Assembly: GCF_020883455.1 (NCBI RefSeq)
Contig: NZ_CP086615.1
Coordinates: forward strand, 2,046,001-2,110,000
Reading direction: 5' to 3'
Origin: Spiribacter halobius
GTDB taxonomy: Bacteria; Pseudomonadota; Gammaproteobacteria; Nitrococcales; Nitrococcaceae
DNA: 64,000 nt
Notes under the pieces: model-generated
Told to the model about the DNA's origin: nothing
The model's input: the letters and a program-made list of their open reading frames with translations, nothing else
The model's database searches: none
Part shown: one piece after another, positions 5,286 to 11,330 of the stretch
Layout: each line of letters opens with the position of its first letter
How positions within the stretch are numbered: the stretch's first letter is position 1
Made by a program: the position numbers and the translations under genes

Positions 5286-6749
5286 TCAGGCCGGGGGCAG
5301 GATGAGGGTTGCGGTGGTGCCTTCGCCGGGCGTGCTGTCGAGGGTGAGGCGGCCGCCGCTCTCGCGGGCGAAGCCGTCGGCCATGCTCAGGCCCAGGCCG
5401 GTGCCGAAGCCGTGGCGGCGGTGGCTGAAAAAGGGCTCCCGGGCGCGGGCGAGCACCTCCGGCGACATGCCGACGCCGGTGTCCCGGAGGGTGATGACGA
5501 CCTCGCCGTCGGCCGTCGTGCCGACGGTGAGGGTGATCGTGCCGGACTCCTCCATGGCCTCGATGGCATTGAGCGCCAGCGCCAGCAGCGAGGTCTCGAG
5601 CAGGGCGGGGTCTGCGATCACCTTGGGAACGCTGGCGGGGAGATCGGCTTCCAGCACCACGTGCCGCGGCAGGTTGGAACGGATCAGCGCTGCCGTGTCC
5701 TGCACCGTTGCCAGCGGGTCGATCTGCTGGGCGACCATCACCCGGCGCCGCGAATAGGTGAGCAGGCGGCGCACCAGGTCGGCGCCATGCTCGGAGGCGC
5801 GCAGGATCGACTCCAGGTAGCCGCGGCTGCGCTCGTCGAGCAGGGCATCGTCCAGCAACAGGTCGGCGGAGGCGGTGATGCGCATGAGCAGGTTGTTGAA
5901 TTCATGGGCGACGCCGCCGGTGATGCGGGTGACGAGCTCCATGCGGCTCGCCTCCAGCAGCTGGCGCTCGCGCCGGCGCTCGTGGGTGACGTCGGCGAGG
6001 ATCCAGACGCGCCCGCTCGCCTGCGCCAGCTCCAGCGGACGGTGCTGCACGAACAGCACCCGCTCGCCGCGGCGCAGATCGGCGCTGCGGGGGTCGTCCG
6101 GGCTGCCATCCAGCGCCAGCCGTTCGCCGGCCTCCGCCGCGTTGTCGGCGCTGCCGATGAATCCACGCATGAGGCGCGAGAACTCGGCCGGGGTCACGCT
6201 ATGCGTCGGCGCTCCCAGCAGGAGCGCGGCGGCCGGGCTCATCACCACCCAACGGGCGCCATCCTCGACAAAGGCGACGCCATGGGGCAGCGCTTCCAGC
6301 ACGCCGAGCAGCAGCGCCGCCGGCGAGAGCGCCCCGGGGGGGCGGGCGGCCTGGCTCAGCAGCATATCCAGGGTGCGGCAGGCGGGCTCCAGCGGAGGTG
6401 CGTCGGGAACCGCATCCGCCCAGGCGAACAGCAGCCGGCAGCGAGACTCCACCGCGCCGACGGGCGGGCCGAACCACAATGCCTGCGGCCGGCCGCCACA
6501 GGCGCTGAGGAGCACGGCGGGGAGTTGCGCCTCCCGGGTGGTCTGCGGCACCGGCGCGGCGAAGGGCGCCAGTGGCGCCGTGGGTACGGTGACCCCGGTG
6601 GCGAGCCTTGCCGTGGGCCATTGCGCCACCACCATGGCGCGCTCGCTCCCGGTGGCGTCCAGCAGCAGCGCGGTGCCGGCGCCGGCCGCCTGCGCCGCTA
6701 TGGCCAGGGCGTCGTCCAGCCGGCCGGGCACGGCGCCGGCGTCGATCAT
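5286..6749 (-). CDS. soluble PAS-domain sensor histidine kinase coupled to an RsbQ-like hydrolase
   Basis: A 487-residue histidine kinase with no membrane segment. Residues 1-140 form a diverged GAF-like region. About 148-260 is a PAS domain (LEALPHGVAFVEDGARWVVM... through VWILADVTHERR). The HisKA box has the phospho-acceptor H282 in GGVAHEFNNLL, and the HATPase domain follows with the N box LNAIEAM and G boxes DTGVGM and GTGLGLS. The H-box is of the HEFNN type. No receiver domain is attached and no response regulator adjoins. The ATG at 6747-6749 overlaps the TGA stop of the hydrolase gene (ATGA), implying translational coupling and joint function. In Bacillus the RsbQ hydrolase works with the PAS-containing RsbP phosphatase; here the PAS partner is a kinase. 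What it phosphorylates cannot be told from the sequence. Confidence 0.88.
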   Translation of the reverse strand: MIDAGAVPGRLDDALAIAAQAAGAGTALLLDATGSERAMVVAQWPTARLATGVTVPTAPLAPFAAPVPQTTREAQLPAVLLSACGGRPQALWFGPPVGAVESRCRLLFAWADAVPDAPPLEPACRTLDMLLSQAARPPGALSPAALLLGVLEALPHGVAFVEDGARWVVMSPAAALLLGAPTHSVTPAEFSRLMRGFIGSADNAAEAGERLALDGSPDDPRSADLRRGERVLFVQHRPLELAQASGRVWILADVTHERRRERQLLEASRMELVTRITGGVAHEFNNLLMRITASADLLLDDALLDERSRGYLESILRASEHGADLVRRLLTYSRRRVMVAQQIDPLATVQDTAALIRSNLPRHVVLEADLPASVPKVIADPALLETSLLALALNAIEAMEESGTITLTVGTTADGEVVITLRDTGVGMSPEVLARAREPFFSHRRHGFGTGLGLSMADGFARESGGRLTLDSTPGEGTTATLILPPA

Positions 6750-7585
6750 GGGGCAGCTCCGCTGCGTGCTGGCGTGTTCACGGGGAGGATCGTGCGCAGC
6801 GTCGACCACACCTCGTCCGGCGCGGAGAGGTGGGGCAGATGCCCGGACGCCTCGATCCGGTGCAGCGTGGCGTGCTGGAGGCTGTTGCGCAGATAGTCGG
6901 CCACCGCGGCCGGGACGGCCATGTCCTGGGAGCTGTGAATCAGATCCACGGGTACCGTCACCGCCGGCAGCAGGTCGCGCACGTCCGACTGGAAGATGGT
7001 GCGTGCCACGCCCACGGCGATGTCCGGGCGCATCGCGCGCAGGCCGTCGCTGAAGATGCGTACCGCTTCCGGCGCGTCGGCATGGATCACTGCGGGGGCG
7101 AAGCCCGCGACCCAGTCCTGATAGGTGGTGCCCATGGCGCGGTAGAGCCCGTCCAGATCCTCCTGGTCGAAGCCGCCGTAGTAGCCGGGGGCGTTCAGGT
7201 AGCGCGGCGAGGGGTTGAGCATGATCAGCCGGCGGAAACGCCAGTGCTGCTCGAGGCTCGCCATGAGCCCGATCATGCCGCCCACCGAGTGCCCGAGGTA
7301 ATAGGCGTCGGTGATCTCCTGCTCCGCGAGCAGGGCCAGGAGGTCGTCGGCGTAGTCACCGACGTGGGTGTAGTCGGCCGGCTCGAAATCCGGATCGGCG
7401 ATGCAGGCGAGGTCGTAGCCGAGGACGCGGAAGCGCGCGTCCAGCCCCGGGCGCAGATAGCGCCAGGAGGTCTGATCGGTGCCGAAGCCGTGGCCGAGGA
7501 TGAGCACCGGCCCGTCGACTCCGCTCCAGGTGGCGTTGAGGCGGCGGGCGTGACGGCCGTCGGCGGGTATCGGGAGGCGGGTCAT
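6746..7585 (-). CDS. RsbQ-like alpha/beta hydrolase (putative small-molecule sensor)
   Basis: A 279-residue alpha/beta hydrolase. The nucleophile elbow GHSVGG gives S100; D221 (SSQDMAVP) and H249 (EASGHLPH) complete the triad, close to the numbering of Bacillus RsbQ (S96, D219, H247). The RsbQ/KAI2/D14 signature is clear in NPSPRYLN followed by YYGGFDQEDL and the four-helix lid. Such proteins hydrolyse or bind a small hydrophobic ligand and signal through a partner protein. The start at 7585 was chosen because the fold begins there; the open frame upstream is non-homologous and crosses a repeat. The gene ends by a four-base overlap with the PAS kinase, so it likely feeds that kinase a signal. 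The family call is strong; the ligand is unknown. Confidence 0.88.
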   Translation of the reverse strand: MTRLPIPADGRHARRLNATWSGVDGPVLILGHGFGTDQTSWRYLRPGLDARFRVLGYDLACIADPDFEPADYTHVGDYADDLLALLAEQEITDAYYLGHSVGGMIGLMASLEQHWRFRRLIMLNPSPRYLNAPGYYGGFDQEDLDGLYRAMGTTYQDWVAGFAPAVIHADAPEAVRIFSDGLRAMRPDIAVGVARTIFQSDVRDLLPAVTVPVDLIHSSQDMAVPAAVADYLRNSLQHATLHRIEASGHLPHLSAPDEVWSTLRTILPVNTPARSGAAP

Positions 7586-7691
7586 GGTCAGCTCCAGGTG
7601 ATCGGAAGATCGGCAACCCCGACCTTGCCTAGTCGAGCACGCCGAGGCTGCCACGACCGCGAACTGGCGCAAAGCAGCAAGCGCCAGCCCG

Positions 7692-7737
7692 CCTGTCTCA
7701 CCGATCCGCGCCCGCAGCGGCGAATCGGTGAGACAGG
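7692..7737. repeat. dispersed CTCACCGAT hairpin, complete copy downstream of pdsS
   Basis: Arms CCTGTCTCACCGAT (7692-7705) and ATCGGTGAGACAGG (7724-7737) are perfectly complementary over 14 bp around an 18-nt GC-rich loop beginning ccgcgcccgc. It lies five bases beyond the stop codon of the minus-strand kinase gene, where it could end its transcript. The same core recurs at 22591, 56055 and as partial copies elsewhere. Confidence 0.85.
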
Positions 7738-7742
7738 TGGGC

Positions 7743-9752
7743 TCAGTCGGGCATATCCCGCAGCAATACCCGGAAGACAGCGCCGCCGCCATCGTCGAGG
7801 CTGGCGGCGCGGACGTTGCCCCCGTGCCGCTCGGCCACCAGGCGCACGATGGTGAGCCCGAGCCCGAGATGCGCCCGCCCGTCGCCGGGGTCCCCCTGCC
7901 GCTGACTGACCAGGGCGTCGAACGGGTCGCTGTCGCCGAAATCCGGAAGCGGCGGCCCCTGGTTGGTGACGCTCAGCACATAGCCGCTCCCCGAGGGCGC
8001 AACGGCAAGGCGTATCCAGCCGCCGTCCGGGCTGAAGCTGGCGGCGTTGTCCACGAGCTTGTCCAGCAGCTGGCCGACCAGCTCGGGTGCACCGTGCAGC
8101 GGACAGGGCGTCGCCGGCAGGTCGAGCTGGATGCGGCGGCCGGGGTAGAGCTGCTGGTAGGCCTCGCCGTAGTCCCGTAGCAGGGCGGCAAGGTCGAAGC
8201 GCTCCGCCGCCGTGTCCGCCAGGCTCTGCTCGATGCGGGTCGCCTCGCTCATGGCACGGAGCAGGGTGCCGAGCCGCTCGGCGCCGGCCTGGGCACGGTC
8301 GAGATAGCGGGTGTCCTCCGCCGTGAGGCGGGTCCGGTCCAGGTTGTCCAGGGAGGAGGTGACGATGGCGAGCGGCGTGCGGAGCTCGTGGGCGAGGCGG
8401 CCGGTGAGGCTGCGGAGGTAAGCCGTGTAGCGGCGCAGGGACTCCAGCGTCTGCCCGAGGCTGCGGGAGAGATCGCCGAGCTCGTCGCCGGCACTGCGCT
8501 CGGGCAGCTCCGGGTCCACCTCGCCGCGGCTGCCGACGGCGCTCGCGGCCGCATCGCGCAGCCCGCGGATGCGCCGCGACAGCCGCCCGGCGAAGGCGAG
8601 CAGCGCGCCAAGGGCGAGGGCAACCGCCAGCAGCACCGCCAGCAGGACCTCGCCCAGTGCCCGCTCGGTGAGCAGCAGCACGCCGTCGCTGGCCTGCTCC
8701 ACAACCAGGGCGCCCCCTCCGGCCAGCGGCTGCGCGGCGCTGATGAGCACACCGCCGGCACCGCCGACGCTCCGCCAGCGGGTGCCGGCCTCGCCAGCGA
8801 GCGCCTGCGCGACCTCCGGGCCGGCTATGCGTGCCCGGGGCCCGCTGCGTTCGGCCGGCGGCGCCAGGGGCGAGGCCAGCAGATAGCGGTAGATCAGGTT
8901 GCGCAGCCAGGGCCGGCCGGGGCCGGTGAGGTCCAGGCTGCCGGCGGCTGCGATCACCCAGCCGCTGCCGTCCAGTACCCAGGCCCGGGTGTGTCGCGGC
9001 AGCAGCTCGTCGACCTGCCTGGCCAGCGCCGCCGCCGGCCGGCGCAGGGTGCGCGTCGCCGCAGGCCGGGCGCGGGGGCCGGTGCCATGCACCGCGCCGG
9101 GCCCCCGGGCGTCCCGATCATGTACGCTCGCCCCCAGGGCCGTCACCTCCGCGCCGCGGGGGATGCGCAGCTCCACCGAGTAGCCCTGCGGCGTCTCCTG
9201 CCACACGCCGGAGATGCGATGGCGCGGGGCATTGCCCTCGACCGGCAGGGCCTGGAAGGCGCCCGGGGCGAGCGGTGCGATCCGGTAGTGCAGCGCCGTC
9301 CCGGCGCGGCGCAGGCGCAGGCGCAGGTGATCGCCGGCGGCCGCCGCGGCACTTGGGGCCGGGCGGTAGCGGCGGCTGTGGTCGCGGGCCTCGATCAGCG
9401 CGACCAGGGCGTCGCCGCGCTCGGCGAGGGCCAGGCGTGGCGGCTCGCCGCTGCGGCCGTCGAGATGGGGCAGGGGGCGCGGGAGGTCCGGCCAGTCCCG
9501 CCATTCGTCGCCGTAGCCGTCGACGCTCAGGGGGCGGTCACTCGGCCAGACCAGGAGGCTGTCCCGGTCGCGGTCGGCGGGCAGGCTGCCCAGGCTTGCC
9601 AGGCTGCGCGCCAGGGCACCGGTGGTGGCGAGCAGGGCCTCTTCCTCCCCGGCGCGCAGCAGCCCTTCCGTGGTGCCCACGAAGCGCCAGGCCGCCCAGG
9701 GCAGCACCAGCAGCACCAGGCTGATCAGCGCGAGCTTGCGTCGCAGGCTCAT
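7743..9752 (-). CDS. pdsS: PdsS-like membrane sensor histidine kinase (proteobacterial dedicated sortase system type)
   Basis: A 669-residue membrane kinase. One transmembrane helix lies at about 8-24, followed by a large periplasmic part (about 25-365) that includes a carbohydrate-binding-like stretch around VDGYGDEWRDWPDLPRP. A second helix is at about 366-388, then a HAMP segment, HisKA with H455 in GRLAHELRTPLA, and HATPase with KLVDNAASFSPDGG and HLGLGLTIV. This layout matches the histidine kinase of the proteobacterial dedicated sortase system. It follows the response regulator by a four-base ATGA overlap at 9749-9752. Envelope-related signalling is likely. No sortase or sortase-target gene is present nearby, so the name reflects family likeness rather than demonstrated partners. 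Confidence 0.8.
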   Translation of the reverse strand: MSLRRKLALISLVLLVLPWAAWRFVGTTEGLLRAGEEEALLATTGALARSLASLGSLPADRDRDSLLVWPSDRPLSVDGYGDEWRDWPDLPRPLPHLDGRSGEPPRLALAERGDALVALIEARDHSRRYRPAPSAAAAAGDHLRLRLRRAGTALHYRIAPLAPGAFQALPVEGNAPRHRISGVWQETPQGYSVELRIPRGAEVTALGASVHDRDARGPGAVHGTGPRARPAATRTLRRPAAALARQVDELLPRHTRAWVLDGSGWVIAAAGSLDLTGPGRPWLRNLIYRYLLASPLAPPAERSGPRARIAGPEVAQALAGEAGTRWRSVGGAGGVLISAAQPLAGGGALVVEQASDGVLLLTERALGEVLLAVLLAVALALGALLAFAGRLSRRIRGLRDAAASAVGSRGEVDPELPERSAGDELGDLSRSLGQTLESLRRYTAYLRSLTGRLAHELRTPLAIVTSSLDNLDRTRLTAEDTRYLDRAQAGAERLGTLLRAMSEATRIEQSLADTAAERFDLAALLRDYGEAYQQLYPGRRIQLDLPATPCPLHGAPELVGQLLDKLVDNAASFSPDGGWIRLAVAPSGSGYVLSVTNQGPPLPDFGDSDPFDALVSQRQGDPGDGRAHLGLGLTIVRLVAERHGGNVRAASLDDGGGAVFRVLLRDMPD

Positions 9753-10438
9753 GCCTGCCAGCGATAGCCGAGGCCGTGCACGGTGCCGATGGCGTCGAAG
9801 GCCGGGTCCACGGCCTGGAACTTCCGCCGGATGCGCTTGATGTGAGAGGTGATGGTGTGGTCGTCGACGACGATCCGCGCCTCGTCCATGAGCTGATCCC
9901 GCGTGCGCACGTGGCCGGGGCGGCGGGCGAGGGCGTGCACCATCCAGAACTCCGTGACCGTCAGCGCCACCGGCTCGCCCTGCCAGCGCAGCTCCAGGCG
10001 CTCCGGGTCCAGCCAGAGTGCGCCGCGCTCGAGGGCATGCTCCTCCACGGCGGCGCCGCGCAGGGCGTCGAGCCGGCGAAACAGGGCGGCGATGCGGGCG
10101 CTGAGCTGTACCAGGCTGATGTCCTTGCCGAGGTAGTCGTCGGCGCCCAGCCGCAGGCCCGAAACCGCATCCAGATCGCTGTCGCGGGCGGTGAGGAAGA
10201 TGATCGGCAGCGCGGTGGAGCGGGCGCGCAGCTCCCGGCAGAGGTCGAAACCGCCCTCGTGCTCGTCGCCGAGGCCGACGTCGATAATCACCAGATCCGG
10301 CAGGGCATCGCGGAACGCGGCCAGGGCCTCGCTGCGGCCCGGGTAGCCACGGACGCGGTAGCCCTGGCGCGCCAGGGCCTCGGCGTAGTTGGCGCGAATG
10401 CTGGCCTCGTCCTCGACGATGGCGATCTCGCGGGGCAT
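9749..10438 (-). CDS. pdsR: PdsR-like response regulator (receiver plus winged-helix DNA-binding)
   Basis: A 229-residue OmpR-family regulator. The receiver domain has acidic residues D10-E11, the phospho-acceptor D53 in VIIDVGLGDE, T in FLTARDSD and the conserved lysine in LGKD. An OmpR-type winged helix follows (LTVTEFWMVHALARRPGHVRTRDQLMD ... ITSHIKRIRRKF). It is the first gene of a two-gene operon with the kinase and is divergent from the OmpA-like gene at 10620, which is therefore a likely target. The 181-bp gap between them should hold its binding site, although no direct repeat stood out there. Confidence 0.86.
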   Translation of the reverse strand: MPREIAIVEDEASIRANYAEALARQGYRVRGYPGRSEALAAFRDALPDLVIIDVGLGDEHEGGFDLCRELRARSTALPIIFLTARDSDLDAVSGLRLGADDYLGKDISLVQLSARIAALFRRLDALRGAAVEEHALERGALWLDPERLELRWQGEPVALTVTEFWMVHALARRPGHVRTRDQLMDEARIVVDDHTITSHIKRIRRKFQAVDPAFDAIGTVHGLGYRWQA

Positions 10439-10619
10439 GGGCCCTCCCGGACCGGTGAAACGATGACTAACCCTGCCACAGGCCCGGTCGGCCGGCCACG
10501 GCGGTCACCTTTTCGCCACAAATCATCAGCGGACTGCCACGGCGCCGCCCGGGCAGCGTCCTCCCGCTGCGGTGTGATGGCCCCGTCGCAAGCCAGTCAA
10601 TCCGCAGAGGAGTTGCACC

Positions 10620-11330
10620 ATGAACCGACGTCGCCTTTACGCTATCGCCCTTGCCGCCGGCCTTGCCGGTGCCCCCCTCGCCGCCGCGGCCGACACCGGC
10701 GGGGACAGCCCCGAGACCGGCTGGGGCTTCGCCGCCGGCGGTCTTGCCGGCGCCGCCCTGGGCGGGCCCGTGGGGCTGCTTGCCGGCGGCATTGTCGGCG
10801 CACTCACCGGCAACGCCATGGACGCCGAGCAGGACCGCCGCGACGCGGCACAGCGCCTCGAGGCCGCGGACCGGCGCGCGGAGCGTCTGGCCGCGGAGCT
10901 CGGGGAGGCCCGGCAGGCCCTTGCGGAGAGCGGCGCGGCCACGCCGCTGGAGGGTCTCGACGGCGCGCTCGCGCTGGATGTGCTGTTCGACACCGGCTCC
11001 GCGGCACTGGACGCCCGGGCCGAGGAGCGGATCGCCCGCGTGGCCCGGGTGCTGGAGCGGTACCCGGAGCTGCAGCTGACGCTCACCGGCCACGCCGACC
11101 GGCGCGGCTCCGCGGAGCGCAACGAGACACTGTCCCGCGAGCGGGCGGAGGCCGTGCGCCGGGTGCTGCTGGAACAGGGCATCGCTGCCGAGCGTCTGCG
11201 CCTGCGGGCCCGTGGCGAGCAGGCGGCCAGCGCGCCGGTGGAGGACCTGGAGGGCCTGGCGCTGGATCGCCGCGTGGCCCTCGAGGTGGGGATGACGCGG
11301 CGCGGACCGGACGTCGCCCAGGGCCGCTGA
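10620..11330 (+). CDS. pdsO: PdsO-like OmpA-family envelope protein
   Basis: A 236-residue exported protein. It has a signal peptide of about 23 residues (ending APLAAAA), a glycine-zipper stretch (AAGGLAGAALGGPVGLLAGGIVGALTG), a charged coiled-coil (about 60-105) and a C-terminal OmpA/peptidoglycan-binding domain with the pattern LDVLFDTGSAALDARAEERIA ... LTLTGHADRRGSAERNETLSRERA. This order is that of the OmpA protein assigned to the proteobacterial dedicated sortase system. AGAGGAG precedes the start codon. It likely anchors to peptidoglycan in the periplasm and is divergent from its probable regulators pdsRS. Confidence 0.8.
   Translation: MNRRRLYAIALAAGLAGAPLAAAADTGGDSPETGWGFAAGGLAGAALGGPVGLLAGGIVGALTGNAMDAEQDRRDAAQRLEAADRRAERLAAELGEARQALAESGAATPLEGLDGALALDVLFDTGSAALDARAEERIARVARVLERYPELQLTLTGHADRRGSAERNETLSRERAEAVRRVLLEQGIAAERLRLRARGEQAASAPVEDLEGLALDRRVALEVGMTRRGPDVAQGR

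Follow-up and report, generated by a model that had tools for sequence, protein, structure and literature searches.

The closest described system is the RsbQ/RsbP-PAS module. Nadezhdin, Brody, and Price (2011; PMC3183031) counted 45 RsbQ-type hydrolases (that of B. subtilis and those of 44 homologous pairs) whose genes immediately precede the genes of RsbP-PAS proteins; the outputs of the latter are a phosphatase, a histidine kinase, or a diguanylate cyclase, and histidine kinase outputs are described for Gram-negative bacteria. The general idea of an RsbQ hydrolase with a PAS partner that carries kinase, cyclase, or phosphatase outputs is therefore already published. For the B. subtilis proteins, it was shown that RsbQ contacts RsbP-PAS and that this contact needs the F-alpha helix, whose conserved residues are F55, Y/H59, and P62 (RsbP numbering); the RsbP-PAS domain lacks the DIT motif, and an enzyme that delivers its product by contact is one of the two models offered for RsbQ (PMC3183031). 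RsbQ is also usually taken to be the bacterial ancestor of the plant KAI2 family, as stated in a passage of PMC10504578 that cites Wang et al. 2022.

Here, we compare with these systems a hydrolase-kinase gene pair from a 64,000-nucleotide stretch of the Spiribacter halobius genome (NZ_CP086615.1, positions 2,046,001 to 2,110,000; here called the window). Judged by its sequence features, the GAF-PAS (class II) form to which this pair belongs is a rare second version of the RsbQ-type module.

Gene arrangement and kinase domains

Both genes lie on the minus strand, and the hydrolase stop codon and the kinase start codon share ATGA (GAGCTGCCCCATGATCGACG), as an earlier sequence-only reading of this DNA had noted in proposing translational coupling. 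The features are as follows, with their basis in parentheses.

6746..7585, minus strand: alpha/beta hydrolase of the KAI2/D14/RsbQ superfamily, 279 amino acids, ATG start, triad S100/D221/H249 (sequence)
5286..6749, minus strand: putatively soluble histidine kinase, 487 amino acids, GAF-like + PAS + HisKA + HATPase_c (sequence, domain matches, model)
6746..6749, minus strand: ATGA overlap of the hydrolase stop TGA and the kinase start ATG (sequence)
6333..6722, minus strand: predicted GAF-like domain, kinase residues ~10 to 139, the most N-terminal part (AF2 model, class II profile)
5985..6323, minus strand: predicted PAS domain ending in DVT (DIT motif), kinase residues 143 to 255 (AF2 model, alignment)
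5745..5927, minus strand: HisKA dimerization/phosphoacceptor domain, kinase residues 275 to 335, H282 in AHEFNN (Pfam)
5289..5612, minus strand: HATPase_c catalytic domain, kinase residues 380 to 486 (Pfam)
7686..7743, no strand assigned: inverted repeat whose arms are 24 nt long and 92% complementary, located at the end of the pdsS-like gene upstream (sequence)

The inverted repeat probably separates the pdsS-like transcript from the hydrolase-kinase transcript, presumably by acting as a terminator; it is not among the sites listed by the terminator scan.

The HisKA and HATPase_c domains exceed their Pfam cut-offs, and the H-box AHEFNN occupies residues 281 to 286, in agreement with the earlier naming of H282 as the phosphoacceptor. 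A scan of 19-residue windows along the kinase found none that looks transmembrane (best mean hydropathy, 1.63), which makes it plausible that the kinase is soluble, as had been proposed. No Pfam PAS model matched the kinase; its PAS domain was assigned from the alignment of the family and from the predicted fold. In a shallow-alignment AlphaFold model of residues 1 to 255 (pLDDT, 72; mostly 57 to 80 in the GAF part), the order of helices and strands is GAF-like at about residues 10 to 134 and PAS-like at 143 to 255. Structural alignment places GAF domains on residues 4 to 139 (Z, 8.4 to 9.3 over 114 to 130 residues) and PAS/LOV domains on residues 140 to 255 (Z, 8.3 to 9.4), and the best Foldseek match to residues 1 to 255 is 2ykh, the sensor region of a sensor kinase (E = 2.6e-6). 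The model supports the GAF assignment at residues ~10 to 139 with moderate confidence. The PAS domain recognized by the sequence-only reading is thus borne out by alignment and predicted fold at 143 to 255, while the GAF-like region of about 140 residues that comes before it had been missed.

The kinase is an orphan in its genome. As had been noted, it has no response regulator of its own alongside: the only regulator nearby (9749..10438) was considered as a partner and rejected, since it belongs with its own kinase (7743..9752) and matches the sortase-associated PdsR model above the cut-off. That neighboring stretch (7743..11330) is an observation in its own right, as the regulator scores above the cut-off for PdsR (TIGR03787), and the kinase and an OmpA-like protein resemble PdsS and PdsO below cut-off; neither the dedicated sortase (TIGR03784) nor its target (TIGR03788) has a match in the complete genome. 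In the search for an orphan regulator that the sequence-only reading had suggested, the genome gave 51 receiver domains and 29 HisKA matches; for 23 of the receivers the nearest HisKA domain is over 3 kb away, and position therefore singles out none of them as the partner.

Comparison with the RsbQ/RsbP-PAS module

The pair might be read as an ordinary member of the published module with a histidine kinase output. It has in common with the module the hydrolase superfamily, the gene order, with a triad-bearing hydrolase directly upstream of its partner, and the overlap, and histidine kinase outputs are described for Gram-negative bacteria. The partner, however, lacks the features by which RsbP-PAS is recognized. 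A profile of 15 RsbP-PAS partners scored 0.1 bits on the window kinase with filters off, compared with about 70 to 189 bits for RsbP-PAS partners themselves, and the F-alpha motif F-x3-[HY]-x2-P, present in 9 of the 15 RsbP-PAS partners, occurs in 0 of 12 GAF-PAS partners and is absent from the window kinase. The PAS domain is not N-terminal, and it ends in DVT at residues 253 to 255. Because of the profile score, the DVT ending, and the missing F-alpha motif, the window pair is not a member of the RsbQ/RsbP-PAS module as defined; since the hydrolase also falls outside the RsbQ-containing clade and differs from it at diagnostic residues (see below), we regard ordinary membership as improbable.

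Two loci of the published module deserve mention on their own account. A single open frame in L071 (598..2352, minus strand) fuses an RsbQ-type hydrolase, RsbP-PAS, and GGDEF and is thus a natural fusion of that module, and in a genome of the window's family (L027, 6797..9407), an RsbP-PAS gene lies upstream of the hydrolase gene and overlaps it, the reverse of the usual order.

Distribution of GAF-PAS pairs

Loci were fetched by the hydrolase alone and then sorted by partner type into two sets. In the RsbP-PAS set, the hydrolase adjoins a protein matching the RsbP-PAS profile in 38 loci. A hydrolase with a GAF-PAS partner was found in 12 further loci from Bacteroidota, Alpha- and Betaproteobacteria, and metagenome-assembled genomes (MAGs). 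The partners are hybrid kinases in Hufsiella, Mucilaginibacter, and a MAG labeled Beijerinckiaceae; kinases in two Pedobacter; and GGDEF proteins on plasmids of Sphingosinicella and Novosphingobium. Pairs were also found in Paludibacterium and two proteobacterial MAGs, with GGDEF-EAL outputs in Paludibacterium and L020, and in two genomes of another class of the window's phylum, one with GGDEF and one with a kinase. Overlapping genes occur in the window pair, L017, L019 (ATGA), L031 (GTGA), and L030.

The GAF-PAS partners form a class separate from RsbP-PAS. Leave-one-out GAF-PAS profiles recovered 10 of 10 members (E, 1e-15 to 3e-66) and gave no match at all to RsbP-PAS proteins, and none of the partner proteins matched both profiles. 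The window kinase was matched over residues 13 to 255 by a GAF-PAS profile built without it (E = 1e-17). Its sensory region is divergent, with 16 to 24% identity to other members and departures from the class consensus at S171, E162, A165, and H183. Within the class, mean pairwise identity is 0.31 for PAS versus 0.18 for GAF.

The association of this sensory region with the hydrolase is tight. When 376 genomes of another class (taken as Alphaproteobacteria) were scanned with the GAF-PAS profile, only two full-length matches were obtained (E about 1e-35), neither of them was in the profile, and both directly adjoin a hydrolase; the remaining matches were partial (1e-12 or worse), and the flanks examined around them contain no hydrolase. 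These data bear on the possibility that the hydrolase is merely cotranscribed with an unrelated kinase as its chance neighbor. The window's order offers no check from close kin, since 54 of its genomes held no other GAF-PAS-class pair and the four other hydrolases there are of the RsbP-PAS class. Nevertheless, several phyla have the pair, joined to different output domains, and the independent profile scan found the full-length sensory region only beside a hydrolase; on the strength of this recurrence and of the reciprocal scan, we reject coincidence as highly improbable.

The class is very sporadic in distribution. Of 398 genomes sampled from the window's phylum, 19 have the hydrolase family, and the GAF-PAS region was seen in just one, the genome that contains the window, in a first pass that scored at most six candidates per genome and may rarely miss a member. 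A plasmid search with the window kinase sensory region, which is too divergent a query for this purpose, gave no match, nor did phage records. The outcome that the sequence-only reading had named as refuting, a pair not conserved in other genomes, did not come about: the pair recurs in distant bacteria, though as a different, GAF-PAS class that is very sporadic and has no other example among the genomes sampled from the order. Within the literature searched, which covers a minority of subscription papers, we found no description of a GAF-PAS partner for RsbQ/KAI2-type hydrolases, which is weak evidence of novelty.

Two gene annotations in this set call for comment. The Sphingosinicella diguanylate cyclase (L030, 5273..6556) appears to be annotated about 300 bases short, as starting from an in-frame ATG within the hydrolase gene brings back a GAF-like domain. 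An unlisted GGDEF gene runs across the origin of plasmid pP6W2 (from L031 position 5277 to the end of the record, continuing in L050) and has a GTGA overlap with the hydrolase gene. Elsewhere, the hydrolases of L032, L083, and L084 fall near the GAF-PAS/plant side of the tree and adjoin no recognized signaling partner; because these stand alone, it appears that the hydrolase can work without a GAF-PAS partner.

Hydrolase fold and phylogeny

S100, D221, and H249 do not vary among the 22 hydrolase sequences aligned, which upholds the triad first read from the sequence. The predicted model (pLDDT, 91) superposes on KAI2, D14, and DLK2 at about 1.1 to 1.5 A, and model and alignment together identify an alpha/beta fold of the KAI2/D14 type with a Ser-Asp-His triad; the fold has no power to separate KAI2 from RsbQ, as the Z values tie (RsbQ also scores 39.1). 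In sequence, plant KAI2 and D14, together with a reconstructed ancestral plant protein, come closest among solved chains (228 bits; E about 1e-66), and B. subtilis RsbQ is more distant (147 bits; E = 6e-42). The SPRYLN and YYGGF motifs are present at residues 126 and 135, as had been reported, but SPRYLN is the KAI2/D14 form, and B. subtilis RsbQ has SPCYLN. The description of the hydrolase as RsbQ-like is thus supported as to family and not as to branch.

Hydrolase trees were computed under a site-mixture model with the root not fixed, the larger set having four added rows. RsbP-PAS-class hydrolases and RsbQ form one well-supported group in two trees (support, 99/96 and 99/93), the window hydrolase lies outside this clade, and a single change on the tree is enough to account for which hydrolases have RsbP-PAS and which have GAF-PAS partners. 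Five alignment columns are diagnostic, with T36, F178, L182, V193, and V224 in the GAF-PAS class and C, L, F, F, and A, respectively, in the RsbP-PAS class; the window hydrolase carries all five GAF-PAS-class residues, and in six plant receptors all or almost all of these columns show the residue of the GAF-PAS class. The plant receptors group with proteobacterial GAF-PAS-class hydrolases with bootstrap/SH-aLRT values of 99/95 (88/87 in the larger set) in these unrooted trees, and forcing them to the RsbQ side cost about 24 log units, with p values of 0.052 and 0.025 in AU tests. This is suggestive of a place for plant KAI2 and D14 somewhere on the GAF-PAS side. Deinococcus hydrolases form a long branch of their own, and the gene for one of them (L036, 1231..6789) overlaps the gene for a PAS protein upstream and that for a membrane-type diguanylate cyclase downstream, which is perhaps a third partner type.

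Discussion

Our results lead us to favor, as the probable reading, that the hydrolase senses a ligand and passes the signal to the GAF-PAS kinase by touching it. The pair would form a two-protein cytoplasmic sensor in which the hydrolase binds, and probably slowly hydrolyzes, a small molecule, and the occupied or altered hydrolase would then touch the kinase and change its activity, as is proposed for RsbQ and known for KAI2 and D14. The kinase is presumably dimeric, with its GAF-PAS region in the place of the RsbP-PAS domain, and the change would travel through the linker to H282, from which phosphate would pass to a response regulator encoded elsewhere. The better conservation of PAS than of GAF within the class suggests that PAS is the likelier contact or common element. 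A physical association of the two halves is supported by the L071 frame of the sister class, in which hydrolase, RsbP-PAS, and GGDEF make up one chain. The output is probably a phosphorelay, given that the GAF-PAS pair of Pedobacter is followed by a receiver-kinase and then by a single-domain response regulator. What weighs against this reading is the divergence of the window kinase in its sensory region, the existence of lone hydrolases close to the clade, and the moderate confidence of the GAF part of the model.

Alternatively, the hydrolase could be an enzyme of metabolism that either produces or breaks down a diffusible ligand, which the GAF or PAS domain would then sense with no contact between the two proteins. 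The intact triad would fit such a role, as would the nature of GAF and PAS domains as classic small-molecule pockets, and product delivery by an enzyme, though by contact, is among the models offered for RsbQ. The pairing of the same two parts across different outputs, the overlapping genes, and the natural fusion in the sister class nevertheless favor contact, and we consider signaling through a diffusible product rather unlikely.

If signaling to a GAF-PAS partner is indeed what these hydrolases do, then a single family of hydrolase receptors has been connected to no fewer than two kinds of sensory region and to several outputs. We also put forward, tentatively and at somewhat less than an even chance, that the bacterial hydrolases nearest to KAI2 and D14 are those of the rare GAF-PAS-partner lineage and not RsbQ, and that the plant receptors may derive from the hydrolase member of these bacterial pairs, or have a common ancestor with it, rather than with RsbQ itself. 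Which ligand KAI2 naturally binds and what the receptor family was first used for are open questions in the field; should these nearer relatives in bacteria turn out to signal to GAF-PAS kinases and to diguanylate cyclases, they would offer tractable bacterial systems in which to study the ligand, the contact surface, and the direction of the signal.

Compared with known systems, the window pair has in common with the RsbQ/RsbP-PAS module a hydrolase gene directly upstream, swappable outputs (histidine kinase and GGDEF), and an intact triad. It differs in its partner, which has an N-terminal GAF-like domain and a DIT-ending PAS domain without the F-alpha motif in place of RsbP-PAS, and in its hydrolase (T36/F178/L182/V193/V224 as opposed to C/L/F/F/A in the RsbQ class).

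The best Foldseek match of the kinase, 2ykh, and also 2ykf are structures that we take to be of a PdtaS-type sensor kinase with a GAF-PAS sensor region. The likeness to these kinases covers the sensor region alone, at 15 to 17% identity and a TM score of 0.26 to 0.29, and no hydrolase partner is known for them.

The nearest solved relatives of the window hydrolase are the plant proteins KAI2, D14, and DLK2, with which it has diagnostic residues in common; identity is 40 to 47% for KAI2 and D14, with a fold match of about 1.2 to 1.5 A, and 32% for DLK2, at 1.1 A. While these plant proteins act in karrikin and strigolactone signaling via the F-box protein MAX2 and SMXL targets, the window hydrolase is paired with a kinase.
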